The notes below the pieces were generated by a model. That model ran no database searches, was not told the origin of the DNA, and saw only the letters and a program-made list of their open reading frames with translations. 44,007 nucleotides of DNA from a virus. Below, one piece after another: positions 4,708-41,089 of this stretch. The stretch spans positions 1-44,007 of the IMG/VR virus record IMGVR_UViG_3300030116_003639; one strand, given 5' to 3'. Positions within the stretch are counted from its first letter, which is position 1. Each line of letters begins with the position of its first letter. Both the position numbers and the translations under genes were made by a program.

Positions 4708-6153
4708 ATGATAAAAGATTATAGGTTTAAAACCAAGCCATACGCGCATCAGCTAGAGGCATTGGAAAAATCATGGGCTCAAGATACTTATGCCTTATTT
4801 ATGGAAATGGGTACAGGTAAATCTAAGGTCCTTGTTGATAACATAGCTATGTTATATGACAGAGGCGCGATCCGCGGTGCATTAATAATTGCACCAAAAG
4901 GTGTGTATAAAAACTGGGATCAGATAGAGTTCCCAGTCCACATGCCTGACCATGTAGAACACACAAAAGTTTTATGGGAAGCAAACATCACGAAGAAAAA
5001 ACAAATGGAACTTGACACTTTATTTGATGATAAAGAAGAACTTAAGATATTGATAATGAACGTAGAAGCATTTTCTACATCAAAAGGACTGGACTTTGCG
5101 CACTCTTTCCTTAACATGTTATGCGGAAGAGCTTTGATAGGGATTGATGAATCTACGACGATCAAGAATCCGACAGCAAAGCGAACAAAAAATATATTAT
5201 CCATAGGGAATCTTGCGAAGTATCGTAGAATCTTAACGGGCTCTCCAGTCACAAAGTCACCTCTTGATTTATATAGTCAATGTGAATTCTTAGACCCTTA
5301 CCATTTGGGTCATCAGTCTTACTATACTTTCCGCGCACGTTACGCTCACATGATAGATAGAAACTTTGGCGGTCGTCGTGTACAGATTGTAGGTAGTTAT
5401 CGTAGACTACCAGAACTTACAGAAAAACTAGAAAAGTTTTCTTATCGTGTACTAAAAGAAGATTGTCTCGATCTACCAGAAAAAGTATTTACAAAACGAT
5501 TTGTAGATCTGACTGCTGAACAACAAAAAGTTTACAAAGAAATGAAACACATGGCTATTGCAGAACTAAACGGTGGTGTTATGTCAACTATGAATGTAAT
5601 AACACAGTTAATGAGACTGCATCAGATAACTTGTGGTCATTTCAAATCAGACGATGGTAAAGTCACACATCTAAAAAATAACAGAGTAGACTCTTTGATG
5701 GAGTTGTTAGAGGAAACAGAGGGCAAGGTTATAATCTGGGCAAACTACAGGGAAGATATAAAAAACATAGTCGAAAAATTAAAAAAAGCTTACGGAGAGG
5801 CCTCTACAGTCGAATATCACGGTGGGGTGGACCCTACCCTCCGCCAGGAGAACATTGCTCAGTTTCAGCAAAAAAACGGCCCTACACGCTATTTTGTAGG
5901 AAACACTCAAACTGGGGGCTATGGAATCACACTTACGGCTGCTAACACGGTAGTATACTATTCTAACAACTATGACCTTGAGAAAAGACTACAGTCAGAA
6001 GATCGAGCACACCGTATCGGCCAGACTGGCAGTGTTACCTATGTTGACCTGATTGCAGAAAAGACTATAGATGAGCGTATTGTAAGAACATTAAGGAAAA
6101 AAGTAAACTTAGCTAATGAAATTATGGGAGAGGATATTAGAGACTGGATCTAG
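4708..6153 (+). CDS. SNF2-family (SF2) DNA helicase/translocase
   Basis: 481 aa and the only plus-strand gene. Motif I MEMGTGKSK (residues 32-40), DEST Walker B variant (147-150), motif III LTGSP (176-180), motif V region TGGYGITLTAAN (402-413) and motif VI QSEDRAHRIGQ (429-439) are all present, so both RecA-like lobes are complete. The family uses ATP to translocate on double-stranded DNA and remodel bound proteins. In phages it is thought to help replication or recombination. The DES in place of DEAH is usual for phage members. It is preceded by a consensus promoter and only a weak AAGAAAG Shine-Dalgarno. Its TAG stop lies in a CTAG that also encodes the endolysin stop on the other strand. 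Confidence 0.92.
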   Translation: MIKDYRFKTKPYAHQLEALEKSWAQDTYALFMEMGTGKSKVLVDNIAMLYDRGAIRGALIIAPKGVYKNWDQIEFPVHMPDHVEHTKVLWEANITKKKQMELDTLFDDKEELKILIMNVEAFSTSKGLDFAHSFLNMLCGRALIGIDESTTIKNPTAKRTKNILSIGNLAKYRRILTGSPVTKSPLDLYSQCEFLDPYHLGHQSYYTFRARYAHMIDRNFGGRRVQIVGSYRRLPELTEKLEKFSYRVLKEDCLDLPEKVFTKRFVDLTAEQQKVYKEMKHMAIAELNGGVMSTMNVITQLMRLHQITCGHFKSDDGKVTHLKNNRVDSLMELLEETEGKVIIWANYREDIKNIVEKLKKAYGEASTVEYHGGVDPTLRQENIAQFQQKNGPTRYFVGNTQTGGYGITLTAANTVVYYSNNYDLEKRLQSEDRAHRIGQTGSVTYVDLIAEKTIDERIVRTLRKKVNLANEIMGEDIRDWI

Positions 6154-6611
6154 AGAAGTATTGTTTCGTATTTGGTCCGTCCTTCTACTTTGCTCGCTCT
6201 TAACACTTGTTTTCTTGGCGCTTCCGTCACCGCTGAGCAGTGAACCCATCCAGAATTTGGATCACCTTCATTATAAAATTCCAGAATTAGTTGGTCAAAT
6301 TCCGTATTTTTACTAATCCACGTTGCAAGTTCCTTGTTGTCAACTCCATGTATCTCGAAGTCTGCTGCCTCACCCCTGGCATGTTGTGACTTAGACGAAG
6401 AGCCGATAGCTTCGCACAACGCTGGGCTACGATAGCCTGAAGATATCATGACCGGTTTACCAAAATGCTCACGCACTGGTTGCAGGACGGCCTCCGCTAG
6501 GTGAATAAGGTTTTCTATTTCCGCGGTCCCCGGTTCGTTGTTAATGCCTTTGCGTACCGCGGTCTGCGACTTAGTTAATTCTGATAGTGAAAAGTTTTCT
6601 GATAGTTTCAT
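6150..6611 (-). CDS. Endolysin, peptidase M15A-type (D-Ala-D-Ala carboxypeptidase-like)
   Basis: 153 aa. The zinc-peptidase M15 signature is clear: SSGYRSPALCEAIG (58-70), SQHARGEAADFE (75-86, with His77 and Asp84) and GWVH (121-124, with His124), together giving the His-Asp-His zinc site. These enzymes cut peptidoglycan cross-link peptides, and in a phage this is the lysis enzyme acting in the periplasm. No signal peptide is visible, so export would rely on a holin. It starts by ATGA overlap with the 205-aa gene and is the last gene of the late leftward unit. It converges with the helicase, sharing CTAG as the two stop codons. Confidence 0.9.
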   Translation of the reverse strand: MKLSENFSLSELTKSQTAVRKGINNEPGTAEIENLIHLAEAVLQPVREHFGKPVMISSGYRSPALCEAIGSSSKSQHARGEAADFEIHGVDNKELATWISKNTEFDQLILEFYNEGDPNSGWVHCSAVTEAPRKQVLRASKVEGRTKYETILL

Positions 6612-28320: not shown

Positions 28321-29019
28321 TTATGGATTCGCACTAGGAATAGGAATTCTAATAACTCCATCCCTGTACTCATCTCTACGTTTTTTACCCATCTGTTCTT
28401 GTGCAAGTGCAGTAACAGATTCTCTATAAGACTGCTCATACACTTGTTGGTCTTGTGGAGCTTTCAAGAACTTAAAAGCTTCACATAAAGCTGCGTACAA
28501 AAGTACTCTAGGGGCGTTTACGCTTACCCAAGTTTCAGTATTACTACTTGATAATCCTGTAGGTAATCTAGTAAATCCCACTTCAAATTTATATATCGCA
28601 TTAGGAGTAGGCGCAAGAACTATTGTCCCCTCGTCCCACTGGGCATAGTACTTAGGCATAGTTGTAGAGCCAGTTTCTGGTGTATCATAGTACTCATTCA
28701 TAAAATCAGCATCCACTCTAACTAGCTTGTGTCTAACTTTAGTACCTGAATCTAGGTAGATAGTTACATATCTGATAGTAGTAAAATCTGACAATCTAGG
28801 TGTAATAGCGGAGCTTGTTTGTCCTGGTAATGGAACCCATCTAACGTTTTGTGCAGTTGCTCCGTTTTGTACATCTTTATAACAATCTAAATCTACGTCT
28901 TTAAATATTCTAAGTTCAGCATGTTCTATAAAATCATTAACAATAGCATCAGTCAAAACCTGGCTATCTGTCTCTGTGTAATCTCTAATCTGTGTTACTA
29001 ATTCTGCGTATGTTGTCAT
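28321..29019 (-). CDS. Head-tail adaptor-like protein (P22 gp4/SU10-type)
   Basis: 232 aa. The start MTTYAELVTQIRDYTETDSQ, with helices about 1-35 (VLTDAIVNDFIEHAELRIFKD), resembles the adaptor proteins that join portal to tail in podoviruses. A beta barrel at about 55-150 and long helices at about 165-215 complete the pattern. It lies immediately after the HAD-fusion gene (ATGA overlap) and before the decoration-like gene. The connector role is inferred from position and fold-like pattern. Confidence 0.6.
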   Translation of the reverse strand: MTTYAELVTQIRDYTETDSQVLTDAIVNDFIEHAELRIFKDVDLDCYKDVQNGATAQNVRWVPLPGQTSSAITPRLSDFTTIRYVTIYLDSGTKVRHKLVRVDADFMNEYYDTPETGSTTMPKYYAQWDEGTIVLAPTPNAIYKFEVGFTRLPTGLSSSNTETWVSVNAPRVLLYAALCEAFKFLKAPQDQQVYEQSYRESVTALAQEQMGKKRRDEYRDGVIRIPIPSANP

Positions 29020-30020
29020 GCTAATTCTGTTATTGGTCCTACGGACGCCTTTAACCCTCCAAAATCTTTTATACCACCACTTTCATAATATTTAAAGCCT
29101 AGACCTCCAGCAGCTTCAAATTGATCTATGTAGGTAGTTCTATCATCAATTAACAATTTATTTGCCCCACCATAAGGCCCTTTATTTAAATCTGTAGCAT
29201 AATCTGCGCCAGCTGGAGCCCTAGCACCAGTAAGATTAGCAGCTATCCATGCATTTTTTTGTGCGGTTACAGATGCTCCTGAGGTTGTAGATAAGATTCT
29301 GTAACTTCCGTTCTTAGCTACTACTAAATCAATTAATGCGTCTGCTTCTGCTCTTTTTGCAAGAGTTTGAAAATAACTACCTGAAGAAGCAATAGCCGCT
29401 GCTTCTATAGCTGGTGTTAAGTCATACCAATCACCACCTGAGTCTAGTAACCCTTGTGATGTAGCATACGTTGCTACTGCTTGATAGTATTCTGTTAACA
29501 CACCATCCATATCAACATAAACAGTTGTAGTTCCAGGATTACAATTTGCTGTTAACCATTCGTCTAAAATATCATTTGGTGTAAAAGAAAATTTATCATC
29601 ATTTATTTTTGTAACTATGTGACCAGCAGCTGCATTTATATCATGGTCAACTATTCTAGAAACTTCTGGGTATGCTGGCCATTTAGCTGTTGCATCTCTA
29701 AATCTAACGCGGTCCCCGGTGCTGTAGCCGTGGCCCGGGTCTGTAACGTTAACAACAATACTATCTCGTACACCAGCAGAAAATGCGTTTTGACCTAGTA
29801 AATGAGAAACAGGTGGTTCTGTTCTTGCTGGTCTTGCGTGCTGCAATCCTTGTGTATCACCTTTAAATGTTCTTGGTACTAATTGTGGGTGCTTTTGTTC
29901 AAACTCACTTTTGTGTACCCAAGATCCATTCCACTCTTTTACCATTTCACGATATGGAAATGCAACTCCACTTCTATCCGATATTGCTTTTGCGTATTTA
30001 CCTGAAGAAAAATTAGACAT
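29016..30020 (-). CDS. Virion/connector protein fused to a HAD-type phosphatase
   Basis: 334 aa in three parts. Residues 1-80 are a structural N-terminus (KYAKAISDRSGVAFPYREMV). About 84-150 is a small beta module with GHGYSTGDRVRF. From 165 to 310 there is a HAD-superfamily domain: motif I DMDGVL (Asp170, Asp172), motif II LSTTSG (243-248), a Lys in the QKNAW helix (255) and motif IV IDDRTTYIDQF (Asp292, Asp293). The layout is like NT5C/5'-nucleotidase-type HADs, so dNMP or another phosphate ester is a possible substrate. The gene sits between two connector genes, so the enzyme may be carried on the virion. A start-region overlap of 8 nt with the 248-aa gene supports the ATG. Confidence 0.8.
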   Translation of the reverse strand: MSNFSSGKYAKAISDRSGVAFPYREMVKEWNGSWVHKSEFEQKHPQLVPRTFKGDTQGLQHARPARTEPPVSHLLGQNAFSAGVRDSIVVNVTDPGHGYSTGDRVRFRDATAKWPAYPEVSRIVDHDINAAAGHIVTKINDDKFSFTPNDILDEWLTANCNPGTTTVYVDMDGVLTEYYQAVATYATSQGLLDSGGDWYDLTPAIEAAAIASSGSYFQTLAKRAEADALIDLVVAKNGSYRILSTTSGASVTAQKNAWIAANLTGARAPAGADYATDLNKGPYGGANKLLIDDRTTYIDQFEAAGGLGFKYYESGGIKDFGGLKASVGPITELA

Positions 30021-30759
30021 TTGGGTAATAAGCCTGTGGAGTTATATAAGTGCTAGTAGAAGATCCATCTTCAACAAGAGCTCTATTAAATTCATCTTCG
30101 TACAACATTTTCATTTGTTGAACTAGTTCAGGCTTTTCTTTTTGAGCAAGATAAAAAGATAATCCTGAAACCATACAAGGTATAAATCTATATGGGGCAT
30201 CAACTGTGTTTTGGTATGCGCCTACATCTTGAATTCTTTTTATATAGTACAACCCAACGTAATTACCTGCAGCAGTAGCATCAGGACATTGGTACAGAGT
30301 TAGCACAGTTTTATCTATAAATCTTTGTACAAAATATTGTGTGGGTTGGCCTTTTTGTTTTTTATTAGATAGACCAGAGTAAGTTGACCTATTTATTTTT
30401 GTAAGAGCAGAATCACTTTGTGAGGTAGTATTATAGTTAGTTCTATAGACAGCTTCTAAAACATCATCAACACCATAAATACCATTGGTAGGTACAGTAG
30501 TTGCACTTGTTCCATCAGTAGCTGATCTATAGAAAATGTACTCTGCTTGTCCTTCAACAAGATCAACATTAGTATTAGCTATTTCCCAATAGTGCAATCC
30601 ACGGTTTGCCCATTCTTGAAACATTATATTTAAAGAACGCCTAGCTGATCTTAATTGATATCCACTAACAGCATGAATACCTAAACGGTCATAAGCTTCC
30701 TGTATAATGTCATCTATTGCAAAACCACTTTCAAAAGTAGTTGTTCCTGATGTTGCCAT
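30013..30759 (-). CDS. Head-tail connector-like protein
   Basis: 248 aa. N-terminal helices (IDDIIQEAYDRLG and SARRSLNIMFQEWANRGLHY) followed by a beta region and C-terminal helices with GLSFYLAQKEKPELVQQM. This matches the usual helix-beta-helix layout of podovirus adaptor proteins next to the tail. It overlaps the HAD-fusion gene by 8 nt. The exact ring position cannot be told from sequence alone. Confidence 0.6.
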   Translation of the reverse strand: MATSGTTTFESGFAIDDIIQEAYDRLGIHAVSGYQLRSARRSLNIMFQEWANRGLHYWEIANTNVDLVEGQAEYIFYRSATDGTSATTVPTNGIYGVDDVLEAVYRTNYNTTSQSDSALTKINRSTYSGLSNKKQKGQPTQYFVQRFIDKTVLTLYQCPDATAAGNYVGLYYIKRIQDVGAYQNTVDAPYRFIPCMVSGLSFYLAQKEKPELVQQMKMLYEDEFNRALVEDGSSTSTYITPQAYYPNV

Positions 30760-31653: not shown

Positions 31654-32565
31654 TTAAGCAGAACCGTCAGAACCGTAGATACCTCTCCAGTCAGACCAGC
31701 CGAAGCTGTATCTTTCTCTGGCTTTGTATCTCATGTTACCAGTTTCAAAATCGCCTTCCATGGCAGTTTTGATTGGTACACGTACCATATGTTTCATTCC
31801 ATTAGGAACATCAGTTTTAATGAAGAACGCATCTGGATCAGTTAGGTAGTTGTTCACTACATAACCTTGAGGGATCATTCCCATTGATTTTAGTGCGTTG
31901 ATATCATTATCAGCTGTTCCTACACGTTGAGCAGACTTCATAAGTCTTTCAGCAACGAACTGGTTCTCTGAAGGTATAATTAGTTTCATACCTCTTGCAG
32001 CAATTTTTAGACCACGCTCATCTTTGAACTGTCCAATGTCAATCATTGCTTGTTCAAGAGAAGTCTCAGACAAGTCAGACAAAGTAGTTGGTCTGTTGCT
32101 TAGGTTACCAGCGATAGTTGGGTGAGCGTTTCCGATTAGGGACTCACCGTCACCACCATTATAACCAGAAGCTTGGAACGCATTGTTTAATACATTCGCT
32201 GCTTTGGTTTGCTTCGTTTGAGCCATAGATCTTGCTAGTGCTTTAGTGTAACGAGTAGAAATCTTATCATACAAGTTATCTTCAACATTTTCCTCAGTTA
32301 GTGAGAAAGCGAGAGCGATTGTCTCATGTTGGTATCTTGCAGTGAAAGTTTCCTGCGCGCTATCATAAGTCACAGCAGCACCTTCTGACTTAACGGCTGC
32401 TTTGTCGAAACCAGATAACATTACTTCTTCTTCAAAAGCTCTGTCACTGTTTTCCGTGTCGAAAATCTCCGCGTGTTGATTTTCGTAGTTTTTGTACTCT
32501 AGTCCAAATAATGCATTCAGACCAGGCTCTAGCTCTTTTGCGAGCTGTTGTCTTGATATAGCCAT
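31654..32565 (-). CDS. Major capsid protein
   Basis: 303 aa. It lies after scaffold and decoration genes in the normal order, has an ideal AGGAGG 5 nt before ATG 32565, and is followed by the best terminator of the window, all signs of very high expression. The sequence (TEENVEDNLYDKISTRYTKA at about 93-112; AARGMKLIIPSENQFVAERL; a C-terminal beta end SFGWSDWRGIYGSDG) fits an HK97-fold capsid subunit of marine podo/siphophage type. No separate protease gene is seen. Assembly uses the upstream scaffold and possibly the phage GroES. Confidence 0.85.
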   Translation of the reverse strand: MAISRQQLAKELEPGLNALFGLEYKNYENQHAEIFDTENSDRAFEEEVMLSGFDKAAVKSEGAAVTYDSAQETFTARYQHETIALAFSLTEENVEDNLYDKISTRYTKALARSMAQTKQTKAANVLNNAFQASGYNGGDGESLIGNAHPTIAGNLSNRPTTLSDLSETSLEQAMIDIGQFKDERGLKIAARGMKLIIPSENQFVAERLMKSAQRVGTADNDINALKSMGMIPQGYVVNNYLTDPDAFFIKTDVPNGMKHMVRVPIKTAMEGDFETGNMRYKARERYSFGWSDWRGIYGSDGSA

Positions 32566-34650: not shown

Positions 34651-35088
34651 TTACATTGCGTGAATAAGGTCTTTTGGATCATCTATAGTTCCAAGTACCT
34701 CATCATCGTTTAACATTCTTATCTCACCACCTTCAATCTCCATACGTGATCCTGCATATCTTGCAAAGATCACCCAATCTTTTGGTTTGCACCACGGACC
34801 TGTTGGATATCTATCTTCGTCTTTGTAACAAAGTGGTCCCATCTTCAAGACATAACCAACTTGTACAGCTGCTCTTGCTCTATCTAATGTTTCTTGTGCA
34901 ATAATAATTCCGCCTTCGCTCTTCTCTTTCACTCTAAAAGGCATAACTAATAATCTCCAACCTGTAGGGTTAGGTAATTTTTCTAAATTTGTTTTTGTGG
35001 GTTCTTTTTCTGCTTCGTGTTGTGCAATCTTTTTTGCATCGTCCTCAGCGTTATATTTATTTTCTAATGCGTGTGACGTTTGTGTCAT
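34651..35088 (-). CDS. Phage GroES-type co-chaperonin
   Basis: 145 aa. After a ~40-aa charged N-terminal extension, the GroES fold is recognisable: PTGWRLLVMPF (41-51), a mobile loop EKSEGGIIIAQ (55-65) with the hydrophobic III where GroES has IVL, a VGYVLKMGP strand (77-85), GPWCKPKDWVIFARYAGSRM (97-116), and NDDEVLGTI near the C-end. The mobile loop docks on host GroEL. T4 gp31 does this so that its capsid protein fits the cage. Lying in the head module, this one likely serves the same job. Shine-Dalgarno AAAGGAG precedes ATG 35088; it overlaps the 78-aa gene by 32 nt. Confidence 0.85.
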   Translation of the reverse strand: MTQTSHALENKYNAEDDAKKIAQHEAEKEPTKTNLEKLPNPTGWRLLVMPFRVKEKSEGGIIIAQETLDRARAAVQVGYVLKMGPLCYKDEDRYPTGPWCKPKDWVIFARYAGSRMEIEGGEIRMLNDDEVLGTIDDPKDLIHAM

Positions 35089-36052: not shown

Positions 36053-38588
36053 GTAATTTTTTATTTAAGTCTTGTCTTACTTTTTCAAAATAAGGTTCCC
36101 AATCTTCATCTGTGCCTGATTCAAAGTCACCAAACTCTATGCCTTTAACCCACATTCTTTGTTTAGATGTTTTCATAGAATAAACAGGTTCAAACATATC
36201 TGTTTTAATTCCATGCTTACTGTCTTCAACAGCAATTAATTGATTGTCTTCCACAACCCAGTGAGTTCCAGAAACTTTTACTCCTTTGTAATCCCAAATA
36301 TCGACTGGCAGTCCTTGTAGAACAAACTCAACTGTACCACCTCTTGTTTCCATTCCAGGAGTAATAGTTGTAATTTCTTTTGTAGTGCCGTCAGCCATCT
36401 CAACCATAGTACCTTTAACAAAACATCTAGACTGACCTTGTTTTCCGCCATGATCTGCTCCACCACCATGGTAACCTCCGCCACCACCACTATTTTTATT
36501 CTTATCCTTATCCTTATTCTTATTCTTATTTTTATTCGCATTCATTGCAGCGTTGACTTGAGATTGAGTAGCTGTGCTCATTGAGCTGTGAGGAGACTGA
36601 GCTCCCCCTGTATATCCTGATACTGTTCCGCCACTAAATGTTCCTGTGCCACTAGGTTTATTATCTCCACTTCCAGTTCCACCACTATATTGATTAGCTG
36701 CATATGTTTCTTTTAAAGTTTGTGCTTCCTCTTCTGCTGCTGCTTCTTCTGCTGCTTTTTGAGCTGCGGCTGCTTCTCTCTCTTCTTTTTCTTTTTTCTG
36801 TCGCTCTATAACTTCTTGTGCTGTTTTTTGATTAAATTCTGCTATTTCATCGTCAATTTCTTTTTGTTTCTGATCAAAACCAAATAAACCACCAAGTAAA
36901 TTAAGTCCTGCAAACAATGGAGAAGCTATTGGCACTTCATCTCCAGGCACTACTCCGGTTCTAAGGTATGGATTAACATTGTCGTATACCAGTTTGCCAT
37001 CTACAAATTTCATAGTAGTTTGGTTAGCTGGATTTGAAAAACTAAGTGGGTTATCTTGTGGTCTAAACCCTTCCATTCTATCTTCTGGTCCTTTGCTTCC
37101 TAGAGGTTTTATATTTTCTGGACCAAGAGATCCAAAACCTTCTGGCGGCATAGGACCTGTCGCACCAGAATTATTCGCGTCTGGATCAAGAATAGGTTGA
37201 ATTGCAGGCGGTACTATTGTTGGAACATTAAAGTTTTGGTTATAGTATTGCGCTGCATAATTAGGAGCCATAAAAGGTGTGAAAGGCAAACCTCCAGCTT
37301 GTAATCCAACACGACCGCCGTATGCCATTTCACCTTCCATTTCCATTCCTGCAAAAGGATCAGTTGGATCGTTCATATATTGAGGAAACTTATCTTCTAT
37401 AATATCCATTATCTGTTCAGGAGCTACGTCAGAAAATTGTTCAGTCATTTGTTTAAAAGCTTCCATACCAGTCGGGTTTAAATCGTCCATGTATCTTCCT
37501 TTTAAATCGTATACCTCTTCACTTATCGGTCCACTACCATCATAGAAAGACTTATCAGAATAACCTTGTACTCCTTCTTCATTAGTTCCATCAGCATAAT
37601 AAACACGACCACCTGTATTCATGTCATCTCTCATAACACCAGCACGTTTCATTACTTCCATTTGCTGTTCTGGTGACATCATTTCAAATTCTATAAGTTC
37701 TCTTTCAGTTAACCCTTCAGCAAAACGTTCTATTACATCTTTAAAACCCATGCCTCCGTCCATAAAGCCTATACGACCACCGTCTGCTTTTGTATTAGAC
37801 CCTACTTCAAAGTCTTCATCTCCTCTAATCATATCCATAAAATTACCAGCACTTTCACCAACAGCATCTTCAAAGTTACCTACATAATCCTGTTCTATAT
37901 ACCCTTTATCTGCAAGGTACCCACTCCCTGCTTTAGCCCCCATATAAGCAAGATCACCAAGCAAAATAGCTATACCTAAGGGACCAGTTCCCATCAAAGC
38001 AGCTCTCATTGCTATTTTCTTTGCTAATTGTCCTTTAATACCTGGAGCGTTAAGAGCTTTTTTAATTGTATTTTTTACAGATTCTCCGCCTCTAATTTTA
38101 CCTTGAGCAGAATCAACCAGATCTAAAGCTTGTCTAGCTCCTAAATATTGTGCTGCTGGTCCGCCTCCTAACATACCTCCTGCTGACATTATGTCTTCAC
38201 CAAGTTCAGATGCTTCTAATGCAGCTTGATCCTCTGGTGTGTATGTGTAGGCATCATCGGACGTCATGGCTTGTACTGCTGCTGCATTTGCGTTTAATTC
38301 TTTACTTAGCTGTGCTGCTTCTGCTTCTGCATTAGCTTGTTCAAAATAAGCATCTAAAGGATCTGCTTCTGGTTCATCGGGATTCAAGAGAGCTTTAAGA
38401 GCAGGAATTGTACTGTTTGTAAAATCATCTTTTAGTTCTGCTTTCTTTGCAGCTCTATCTGCTAAGTACTCATCCATTACAACTTTAGACTCGTCTCCAC
38501 CATACATCCAAGAAGTGCTACCTTGCCCAGGTCGCATAGCAAACGTAGGCATAACTCCTTTTCCAAATGTACTAGTGTAGTCAACCAT
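36009..38588 (-). CDS. GGR(V/I)G-motif virion protein with C-terminal Hint (intein-like) domain
   Basis: 859 aa. The N-terminal third is Ala/Asp/Glu-rich helix with a hydrophobic segment (about 195-225). GGRI/GGRV motifs lie at nucleotides 37770-37781, 37602-37613 and 37308-37319. A Pro-rich region, a Lys/Ala/Glu coil (about 590-645), and a low-complexity NKNKNKNKDKDKNKN linker (about 683-698) follow. From Cys722 comes a Hint domain: CFVKGTMVEMADGTTKEI and VSGTHWVV (His776). There is no C-terminal HN or extein, so it is like a hedgehog/BIL-type self-processing end. Cleavage would release the upstream part. It lies upstream of portal; probable virion or ejection role, inferred. Confidence 0.75.
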   Translation of the reverse strand: MVDYTSTFGKGVMPTFAMRPGQGSTSWMYGGDESKVVMDEYLADRAAKKAELKDDFTNSTIPALKALLNPDEPEADPLDAYFEQANAEAEAAQLSKELNANAAAVQAMTSDDAYTYTPEDQAALEASELGEDIMSAGGMLGGGPAAQYLGARQALDLVDSAQGKIRGGESVKNTIKKALNAPGIKGQLAKKIAMRAALMGTGPLGIAILLGDLAYMGAKAGSGYLADKGYIEQDYVGNFEDAVGESAGNFMDMIRGDEDFEVGSNTKADGGRIGFMDGGMGFKDVIERFAEGLTERELIEFEMMSPEQQMEVMKRAGVMRDDMNTGGRVYYADGTNEEGVQGYSDKSFYDGSGPISEEVYDLKGRYMDDLNPTGMEAFKQMTEQFSDVAPEQIMDIIEDKFPQYMNDPTDPFAGMEMEGEMAYGGRVGLQAGGLPFTPFMAPNYAAQYYNQNFNVPTIVPPAIQPILDPDANNSGATGPMPPEGFGSLGPENIKPLGSKGPEDRMEGFRPQDNPLSFSNPANQTTMKFVDGKLVYDNVNPYLRTGVVPGDEVPIASPLFAGLNLLGGLFGFDQKQKEIDDEIAEFNQKTAQEVIERQKKEKEEREAAAAQKAAEEAAAEEEAQTLKETYAANQYSGGTGSGDNKPSGTGTFSGGTVSGYTGGAQSPHSSMSTATQSQVNAAMNANKNKNKNKDKDKNKNSGGGGGYHGGGADHGGKQGQSRCFVKGTMVEMADGTTKEITTITPGMETRGGTVEFVLQGLPVDIWDYKGVKVSGTHWVVEDNQLIAVEDSKHGIKTDMFEPVYSMKTSKQRMWVKGIEFGDFESGTDEDWEPYFEKVRQDLNKKLHEKRKENQQSDERV
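36490..36540 (-). repeat. Hexanucleotide low-complexity repeat (Asn-Lys/Asp-Lys linker)
   Basis: Runs of a 6-nt unit (TTATTC / TTATCC on the plus strand) encode NK and DK pairs between the virion part and the Hint domain. It looks like a replication-slippage microsatellite that sets linker length. Confidence 0.8.
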
Positions 38589-41089
38589 TAATCACTCCTC
38601 TTTTCTAAGATACTTGCTTTCATCTCTTTTATACCGTCTTTTGCCAAAGATACTGAAGCTCTTAGTTTTTGGTGCTGATCATTTTGCTCCATTTTATCTT
38701 CAGCTATCTCTTTAGCTTGTAACATTTTAGATCTCTCTAAGTTTAACTTATCTTCTGCCTCACTTTGTCTAGCTTGTTCTTGTGCTGCTTTGATGTCAAG
38801 TTCTCTGTCTTTTAATTTTAATAACGGATCACCTTCTATCTGATTAAGTGTTTCTTTTTCAGCTTTTGCATAATCTTCCATAAACTCAGAAATTAATGTT
38901 GCTTTACGTGCCTCAATAGCCACTTGTAACTCTGCTTGTTGCTGTTGAAACTGCTGAATTTGCGGATTTTGCTGCATCATTTGCGGATTTTGCTGCATTT
39001 GTTGGATGATTGGTGCCATTTGCTGTGATAATTGCTGCATACGCTGAATTTCTTGCTGATATTCCATCTCAACGTGCTCTCCAGCCATCAAAACTATGTG
39101 TTCCATGCAATTTTGCTGTAAAATTCCTAACGCTTGAGGATTATTTCTGCAAATAGTCGTACCCATAAACAATAAATGCGATTTCATGTGCGCTTGGTGA
39201 TCTTGTTTTGGAAATGCTTGTATCTTTTTACCATTTAACGCCAAAACATTCTCTGTACCAGGGTCCATTGCTTGTGGTTGTGGCGGTGGTGGTAGTACCA
39301 TATCGATATCTTTTACACCTAACGCTTCATACATGTGTCTGTATGCATGATAAATATTGTGCATAGCAGGATTTGACATTGCAATTTGTAATTCACTTTG
39401 TGCAATAGCAATTCTTTGTGTCTGTGAAAAAATATTTGGATCAGCAACTGGAACGATGTCTACTTTTTGATCAAAGTCTGCTTTAAATATTTCATTCTGA
39501 CCACCAACAACATCATATGGATAAATAGATGGTAGATAAGTTACAAAACATCTTTCTAAAAGCATAAACTCGCATTTCATTGCTGCATAAATTCTTTTGT
39601 GTATTGCTGACATAACCCGCGATCCGCGCTCCAAGAGCGCAACTGTAGTACCAACAGCTGCTGACTGATTACCGTCACCAACTTGTAGGTCTGCTATACT
39701 CGCGAATCGTTGACCAGCGCTTACTACAACACCCATCAACTGTAATAACGTGCCATCAGGACCTTTGAAAGGTAATGGCATAAATGCATCTTTAAGGTTT
39801 CCACCAGGTGCATCAACGTCACGGAACTCGCCCGGCTGCAACGGTTGAGCTTCGTCTCTGACCCTGATGCCTCGCATCTTGAATCCGGCCGGTAAATTTG
39901 ACAAGGTGCCGGCGTCTAAAAGTTGTCTTAGTGCTGCTGTTGCAGTTCTGGACAATCCGCCGATCATGTGAATTAAGCCGAACCCGTAAAATCCGAGTCC
40001 TGGTAGAAATTTAAAGTGGACGAAATAATCTTTACGTTTTTTGGTCTGGTCTTGTTCATCCCAGTTCCTTTTTACGCTTAAGACTTCTCCTGAACCTTCG
40101 TCCAAGGTTACTATGTAAGGAAACTTGACTCCTGTAGACTCATTTGTTTTTGGATCTATGTCCTCAAATCCTTCTATTTCTAAATGGACATGAGCCTCAA
40201 GGATTGTAAATGTTTCGTTCTTATCTGGATCAACACCAGATAGTTCATCTTTTTTATCTGAGACAGCGTCTGGATTAACAGATCCACTTTCTCCTAAATC
40301 AATATCTCTATATACACCTGCTAGTTGTTGCATGATGACATCATTTTTAGTCATCTGTATTTTGTGAATAATGCACTCTGTATCGTCTAATGACGTTGCA
40401 GTATAAGGAACATATAAATCTTCTGCTGGTACAAACTTAGATACACATCTTGCAAGAACTGCATCGTAATAAACTTTTTTAAATGTAGAACCAGACAACG
40501 GTAAATTAAATAACATTTGATCAAACTCAGGTTCATACTCTTTCATGTTTATCATTAGCTGATAGTTCATGAACTCTCTTACACGTTTTGACTGCTTTTG
40601 TTTCTCCGGTGTTTCTAATCCTATAATCTGTGTTCTAACAGGACCACCTGCAGGCATAAGTTCTTTGTAAGCTAGTGCTTGAAACTGTGTTACTGCTTCT
40701 GCAAGAACTGGGTGGGTAGCCCCACTTGATCCTTGGAAAGGCTCAGTTCTGTCTTCGTACTTAAATCCAAGTAAGTCTAATCCGTTTACGTAAGTTTGTT
40801 CCCAATCACTTCTAGCTGACTTGCAGTCTTCGTATTGTTCCATAACTTCGTTTGATATTTCATTAAGAACATTTTCGTCTAAGACTTCTGCTATGTTTTC
40901 TTGGTGACCAGCCATAGGTTGTTCCTGTTGTGGTTCACCAAAATTTATAACAGCACCACCATCTTCAAACATCTCTACGTTAGAAGGTTGTGGGTCTTCT
41001 GCTTCTAGTTCTACTTCCTCATCATAAACGGTAGTTGGATCTTTTAATTCATCCACTCCTTGATCAGGTATATTTTTATCTATCGCCAT
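38588..41089 (-). CDS. Portal protein (P22-type, large)
   Basis: 833 aa. It follows terminase and a 691-aa gene as expected for a portal. Recognisable segments are SSGATHPVLAEAVTQFQALA (about 120-139), a long alpha/beta core with GLGFYGFGLIHMIGGLSRTA (about 365-384), and a C-terminal helical barrel with Gln-rich repeats and a coiled coil (about 670-830). The N-terminus has an EDGGAV segment akin to the GGRV motif. Portals form the 12-mer ring through which DNA enters. Strong AAGGAG before ATG 41089. A 21-bp tandem repeat lies in the Gln-rich part (38959-39000). Confidence 0.85.
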   Translation of the reverse strand: MAIDKNIPDQGVDELKDPTTVYDEEVELEAEDPQPSNVEMFEDGGAVINFGEPQQEQPMAGHQENIAEVLDENVLNEISNEVMEQYEDCKSARSDWEQTYVNGLDLLGFKYEDRTEPFQGSSGATHPVLAEAVTQFQALAYKELMPAGGPVRTQIIGLETPEKQKQSKRVREFMNYQLMINMKEYEPEFDQMLFNLPLSGSTFKKVYYDAVLARCVSKFVPAEDLYVPYTATSLDDTECIIHKIQMTKNDVIMQQLAGVYRDIDLGESGSVNPDAVSDKKDELSGVDPDKNETFTILEAHVHLEIEGFEDIDPKTNESTGVKFPYIVTLDEGSGEVLSVKRNWDEQDQTKKRKDYFVHFKFLPGLGFYGFGLIHMIGGLSRTATAALRQLLDAGTLSNLPAGFKMRGIRVRDEAQPLQPGEFRDVDAPGGNLKDAFMPLPFKGPDGTLLQLMGVVVSAGQRFASIADLQVGDGNQSAAVGTTVALLERGSRVMSAIHKRIYAAMKCEFMLLERCFVTYLPSIYPYDVVGGQNEIFKADFDQKVDIVPVADPNIFSQTQRIAIAQSELQIAMSNPAMHNIYHAYRHMYEALGVKDIDMVLPPPPQPQAMDPGTENVLALNGKKIQAFPKQDHQAHMKSHLLFMGTTICRNNPQALGILQQNCMEHIVLMAGEHVEMEYQQEIQRMQQLSQQMAPIIQQMQQNPQMMQQNPQIQQFQQQQAELQVAIEARKATLISEFMEDYAKAEKETLNQIEGDPLLKLKDRELDIKAAQEQARQSEAEDKLNLERSKMLQAKEIAEDKMEQNDQHQKLRASVSLAKDGIKEMKASILEKRSD
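38959..39000. repeat. Two tandem 21-bp repeats in the portal Gln-rich barrel
   Basis: TTTGCGGATTTTGCTGCATC is repeated head to tail (copies about 38959-38979 and 38980-39000), encoding QQNPQMMQQNPQ-type residues. Likely slippage product. Confidence 0.75.

Follow-up and report, generated by a model that had tools for sequence, protein, structure and literature searches.

A nucleotidase-type HAD phosphatase nested in the barrel of a putative tail accessory protein of marine short-tailed phages

In the IMG/VR virus record IMGVR_UViG_3300030116_003639 (positions 1 to 44,007, a stretch of 44,007 nucleotides hereafter called the window), we found that a gene lying between two genes for adaptor-like proteins encodes a member of the phrog_28581 family into which a HAD domain is inserted: this domain is nested in the last hairpin of a small beta-barrel, and the C-terminal tail of the host protein resumes after it. 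We consider it probable (about 0.6) that the product is a tail accessory protein with an active phosphatase of the 5'(3')-deoxyribonucleotidase (NT5C) type inserted into the barrel of the protein encoded at this position, or slot, while the full claim that this phosphatase is borne on the tail and acts on a small phosphomonoester at the cell envelope is put forward only tentatively.

The features of the gene and of its neighbours are collected in Table 1. We found no internal start codon in this open reading frame (ORF) that could yield a free HAD domain, and the gene shares 4 bases with the next one (29016-29019) and 8 with the one before it (30013-30020), as expected of a compact operon. When the protein was searched against PHROGs, its residues 1-147 matched phrog_28581 (E 1.5e-42) and its residues 164-311 matched phrog_2643, annotated as 5'-3' deoxyribonucleotidase (E 4.8e-13). 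Since the whole protein gave no match at the Pfam or NCBIfam cut-offs or in a sequence-only search of the PDB, and since a profile of the HAD domain matched none of the PDB sequences, this kinship with nucleotidases is visible only through PHROGs, profile-profile comparison and fold. The initial annotation had described four intact HAD motifs, and D170/D172, LSTTSG (243-248), K255 and D292/D293 were all found where it had placed them; K255 is present and invariant, but K280, which is also invariant, is the better candidate for motif III.

Table 1. Position of the nested-domain gene, its parts and selected neighbouring genes in the window
Feature	Position (strand)	Remarks
Downstream adaptor, 232 aa	28321..29019 (-)	PF24175 SU10_adaptor, E 4.2e-26
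Slot protein (phrog_28581) with nested HAD phosphatase, 334 aa	29016..30020 (-)	One unbroken ORF, 0 internal stops
N-terminal anchor, residues 1-66	29823..30020 (-)	ISDRSG..FPY..M..EWNG..VH..E...K.PQL; near-invariant in all homologues
First part of small beta-barrel (endosialidase / E1-FCCH type), residues 76-147	29580..29795 (-)	
Inserted segment, residues 148-320	29061..29579 (-)	Missing from 165-aa homologues (alignments)
HAD phosphatase domain, 5'(3')-deoxyribonucleotidase type, residues 160-312	29085..29543 (-)	
HAD motif I, D170-M171-D172 (in DMDG)	29505..29513 (-)	Both Asp unchanged in 41/41
HAD motif II, S244-T245 (within LSTTSG 243-248)	29286..29291 (-)	Ser or Thr at each, 41/41
K255, invariant	29256..29258 (-)	Pairs with K of KYAWV in human 5'(3')-deoxyribonucleotidase
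K280, invariant; preferred HAD motif III candidate	29181..29183 (-)	
HAD motif IV, D292-D293 (LIDDR)	29142..29147 (-)	Invariant in 41/41
Resumed C-terminal tail of host protein, residues 321-334	29019..29060 (-)	GG-x5-GP-x5
Upstream adaptor-type protein, 248 aa (phrog_12985)	30013..30759 (-)	39% identical (E 7e-57) to DSL-LC04 gene annotated as Pam1 adaptor protein
Major capsid protein	31654..32565 (-)	PF25209, E 1.3e-13; phrog_371
Portal protein	38588..41089 (-)	phrog_1216, E 2e-59; 59% identical to HTVC027P protein

When IMG/VR was scanned with the full-length protein, 13 loci encoding the same long protein were found, along with many encoding a short homologue, mostly of 163-167 residues (range 163-207), that lacks the inserted segment. 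A typical phrog_28581 protein of about 165 residues consists of an N-terminal anchor followed by a small beta-barrel, and the short proteins finish with GG-x5-GP-x5. In the window protein the terminal sequence is GGLKASVGPITELA, in which the spacing to the last residue is the same as in the short forms, although it lies about 170 residues later. When its terminal 14-mer was scored with a profile built from the tails of the short proteins, none of 20,000 shuffles of its C-terminal region scored as high, and the GG-x5-GP-x5 spacing to the C-terminus is found in 30 of the 31 short homologues and in 31 of the 40 fused ones. One fused subclade of eight (L009, L010, L012, L131, L134, L139, L141 and L144) lacks the terminal GP pair and is two residues shorter there. 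Structure prediction, which the initial annotation had suggested as a check, agrees with these alignments: in the model of a short form, a strand at residues 136-140 leads on to strands at 152-153 and 159-161, and in the model of the window protein the whole HAD domain comes between a strand at 143-146 and strands near 321 and at 326-328. Since the strand order is otherwise the same in both models, the insertion site of the phosphatase is the final hairpin of the barrel. The fusion that the initial annotation had proposed thus stands as an unusual combination of domains, but the two parts are not joined end to end.

The barrel of the short-form model matched the barrel of phage endosialidases in fold (4hiz, E 4.7e-4, probability 1.00; 3gvk, E 7.2e-4) and also resembles the FCCH domain of ubiquitin E1 enzymes. 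Sub-threshold Pfam matches to the endosialidase barrel and to E1_FCCH fit this fold match, the latter being weak and found in 7 of 18 homologues (best E 9.8e-4, with one recorded bit score of 13.7 lying below the cut-off of 29.5). Phage endosialidases (4hiz, 3gvk, 1v0e) share their barrel fold with the slot protein and carry it on a tail-associated protein, as the slot protein probably is too, but their barrel belongs to a tailspike whose main chain is the enzyme, whereas the enzyme of the window protein is nested inside the barrel. The most conserved part of the host protein is its N-terminal 66 residues, and the first 60 are modelled with low confidence. In freshwater relatives, the N-terminus displays zinc-ribbon-like CxxC...C patterns, as in the slot genes L416:3629-3904 (MinM2) and L327:3995-4399 (DSL-LC04), while the marine versions have lost these cysteines.

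By its profile and its predicted fold, the inserted domain is 5'(3')-deoxyribonucleotidase (NT5C)-like. An AlphaFold2 model of the window protein had a mean pLDDT of 81.5, with most of the HAD domain above 90, and the top PDB match of this model in Foldseek was a deoxyribonucleotidase-like protein (3bwv, E 7.4e-5); matches to HAD structures had a probability of 1.00 with a moderate TM (0.61 of target, HAD domain). The domain displays the features of the HAD superfamily, with a DxD motif I, a Ser/Thr motif II, a motif III Lys, an acidic pair in motif IV and a Rossmannoid fold, and it is similar to the NT5C-specific profile phrog_2643; hhalign, moreover, aligned it with free phage nucleotidases at a probability of 96.7 (E 3.8e-10). 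Because the gathering cut-off of PF06941 was not reached (1 of 10 members matched, at E 0.32), we call the domain nucleotidase-like rather than a member of the Pfam NT5C family. The free phage nucleotidases XacN1 ORF172, L338C gp152 and EniLVp02_0186 align with it across all motifs, and the profiles of these free enzymes reach the PDB nucleotidases 4mum, 1mh9 and 2jao, which include structures of human 5'(3')-deoxyribonucleotidases. Through the same free enzymes, K280 aligns with the TRDK lysine that precedes LIDD in human 5'(3')-deoxyribonucleotidase, and it is this alignment with a lysine ahead of motif IV that makes it preferable to K255 as motif III.

The free phage enzymes (phrog_2643) share with the window domain the HAD motifs, the K..W pair, the lysine before LIDD, the cap aromatics and a GG after motif IV, but they are encoded by separate genes for about 160-190 residues in non-structural neighbourhoods, whereas the window domain is nested in a protein whose gene flanks adaptor genes. 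Cellular NT5C enzymes (PF06941; 1mh9, 4mum, 2jao; 3bwv) share its fold and the order of its motifs, but the window domain has a shorter cap, belongs to a phage-only lineage and has no PF06941 match at the curated cut-off. The cap aromatics of NT5C-family enzymes hold the base, and the corresponding W198 and F217 are invariant in all 41 distinct fused proteins, which, by analogy, favours a nucleotide as substrate. The best viral structure match was the BFVD entry A0A6J5LP47, a protein of 339 residues that is 32% identical over the HAD part and possibly represents a second, more divergent case of a HAD part within a protein of similar length. One of the weaker structural matches was the polynucleotide kinase/phosphatase of Colwellia phage 9A.

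The same architecture, which the initial annotation had proposed to look for in other marine phages, recurs as a fused ORF in scores of independent viral contigs, and copies from different metagenomes diverge by up to about 40%. Both catalytic Asp, both Lys (K255 and K280) and both Asp of motif IV show no variation among the 41 distinct fused proteins. The HAD domain has a median pairwise dN/dS of 0.19 (Nei-Gojobori, with saturation in many pairs), against 0.25 in the host part and 0.63 in the stretch running from residue 313 to the C-terminus, so that the HAD domain is under purifying selection no weaker than that on the host part. Two profile scans of viral contigs with different lead sequences, whose underlying contigs overlap, placed the HAD domain nearly always in the slot gene (best 80 of 104 and best 80 of 119 relatives), the few exceptions being cut by contig ends; no free-standing copy was found among these relatives, and none of eight related records has a separate NT5C gene. 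In a tree of the N-terminal 112 residues, every HAD-bearing protein lies on one side of a branch with a support of 97/91; one acquisition therefore suffices, and the tree fits a single acquisition of the domain. The GC and GC3 of the insert match those of its surroundings, so the insertion is not recent, and a pattern-based scan of 84,980 cellular genomes for a source found no relative.

The location of the gene between two head-tail connector genes and the structural character of its N-terminus, both noted in the initial annotation, are borne out: both flanking products are adaptor-like by homology, and residues 1-147 belong to a conserved slot among structural genes. Counting only loci with room to see adjacency, the adaptor-slot-adaptor order was observed in 39/39 and 34/34 fused cases, in 31/32 and 32/33 short ones, and in all other variants too. 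The labels "connector" and "structural" are used here on the basis of homology and gene order. The adaptor proteins of phage SU10 link the portal to the nozzle and anchor long fibres (PMC9509320). Where they can be aligned, the structural genes of the window share about 70% DNA identity with those of HTVC027P and 023Pt_psg01, and its portal is 59% identical to the portals of both, making SAR11 a plausible host. Papers describing HTVC023P-type genomes do not mention a nucleotidase (PMC9599517). Elsewhere in the window, positions 6150-6611 encode a Peptidase_M15_3 protein (E 1.3e-22) that is likely a lysis or cell-wall enzyme, and a phage GroES co-chaperonin (34651-35088, phrog_3188) is encoded between the portal and capsid genes. 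A related record of 64.7 kb (L329-L332) encodes a carbamoyltransferase, TauD, several 2OG-Fe(II) oxygenases, Coq4 and a TOTE-type primase domain.

The content of the slot varies between phages while the gene order is nearly invariant: it may hold nothing, the HAD domain, a beta insert, or repeats with a laminin-G domain. Slot proteins of HTVC023P/HTVC027P-type pelagiphages (phrog_28581) share the anchor, the barrel, the tail and the gene order with the window protein, but they lack its HAD domain. The HTVC027P type instead carries a different, beta-type insert of about 100 residues before the same GGG..AGP tail (L082:8001-8870, which is HTVC027P gp65, L164, L193 and L196). Proteins of the CRP-901/902 roseophage type have long GVAGTGAIG repeats in their C-terminal half, and in one such homologue (L294:3001-4758) residues 196-334, among these repeats, match Laminin_G_3 (PF13385, E 6.4e-20). 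Two other homologues, within a range of 546-706 residues (L287:532-2649 and L273:3001-4638), contain YYYCSVHSGMGG-like segments that look plastocyanin-like by eye; in Pfam, L273 has a weak CBM_4_9 match only. Neither the HAD domain nor any recognised extra domain was found in the slot genes of the freshwater (zinc-ribbon) type or of the 023Pt group. Such varied inserts at a fixed gene position support the idea that the slot may serve outward-facing accessory domains.

The closest rival to a tail-borne phosphatase is a cytoplasmic nucleotidase that happens to be encoded by a late structural gene, would be abundant late in infection and would take the phosphate off (d)NMPs inside the infected cell, either to adjust nucleotide pools or to clear breakdown products of host DNA, any presence in the virion being incidental. 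This is possible rather than probable. The closest kin of the domain are intracellular 5'(3')-deoxyribonucleotidases, enzymes that the free phage homologues resemble too, its invariant cap aromatics are typical of a base pocket, and the cytoplasm is where virion proteins are synthesized. Yet a metabolic enzyme needs no nesting in a protein encoded beside adaptors, and neither a free copy (among the best 80 of 104 and of 119 relatives) nor an internal start releasing the HAD domain was found; expression would moreover be late, when most DNA synthesis is already over, and the Pfam matches of 29 non-structural ORFs in the related 64.7-kb record include no nucleotide-salvage gene.

Other readings fare less well. 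The HAD fold could act as a module that binds a phosphate ligand or simply as a bulky decoration, turnover being unimportant, and other inserts of the slot are indeed of a binding type or repeats (laminin-G, weak CBM_4_9, the beta insert, GTGAIG repeats); since D170, D172, the motif-IV Asp pair and both Lys are invariant in 41/41 proteins, when some loss would be expected from binding alone, we regard this as improbable. Like the HAD 3'-phosphatase of polynucleotide kinases, the domain might instead dephosphorylate DNA ends, here those of the phage genome at packaging or ejection, as the position of the gene near those of the portal/adaptor channel and the match to the Colwellia phage 9A enzyme could suggest. 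This is very unlikely, considering that the nearest profiles and folds are nucleotidases, that the invariant aromatic cap suits a mononucleotide, and that neither a kinase partner nor a DNA-binding part could be identified in the window protein. An assembly chimera or an annotation join of two separate genes has a negligible probability: we found no support for it, purifying selection acts at the codon level across the junction, and the idea is refuted by the recurrence of the uninterrupted ORF, free of any frameshift, in dozens of contigs that come from different metagenomes and diverge by up to about 40%.

We therefore return to a tail accessory phosphatase as the preferred reading and propose how it might work. 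A single insertion, in the common ancestor of one lineage of marine phages, would have brought in a complete and catalytically competent NT5C-type HAD domain, which purifying selection then kept. The accessory protein of these short-tailed phages would be co-produced with the head-tail adaptors, and its N-terminal part and barrel would put it at the adaptor region of the tail in several copies per particle, with the nested phosphatase facing outward. With Mg2+, D170 would act as the nucleophile and D172 as the acid/base, while K280, D292 and D293 would surround the phosphate, which would be removed from a small phosphomonoester encountered during adsorption or entry; a nucleotide is the likeliest substrate. 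More broadly, the slot may be an exchangeable display site on the tails of marine short-tailed phages, at which this lineage displays an active nucleotidase acting at the envelope during adsorption or entry; we offer this as a conjecture that is somewhat doubtful in its entirety.

Phage tail proteins that bear enzymes include tailspike depolymerases and esterases, in which, as proposed here, an enzyme domain lies on a tail-associated protein. The enzyme of the window differs from these in being a nucleotidase-type HAD phosphatase. A literature search covering few subscription journals returned no virion proteomics or enzyme assay for this phage group, and no virion-borne nucleotidase or HAD domain in a phage structural protein; as far as our searches reach, the way in which these known domain families are combined, and the place of the combination, are unreported. 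Should the protein prove to be an active component of the virion, a small-molecule phosphatase would join the enzymes carried by phage tails, in relatives of phages that infect SAR11 in the open ocean, where phosphorus is scarce. A fixed gene position that is repeatedly given different extra domains would also be a place to seek host-interaction functions in uncultured marine phages.
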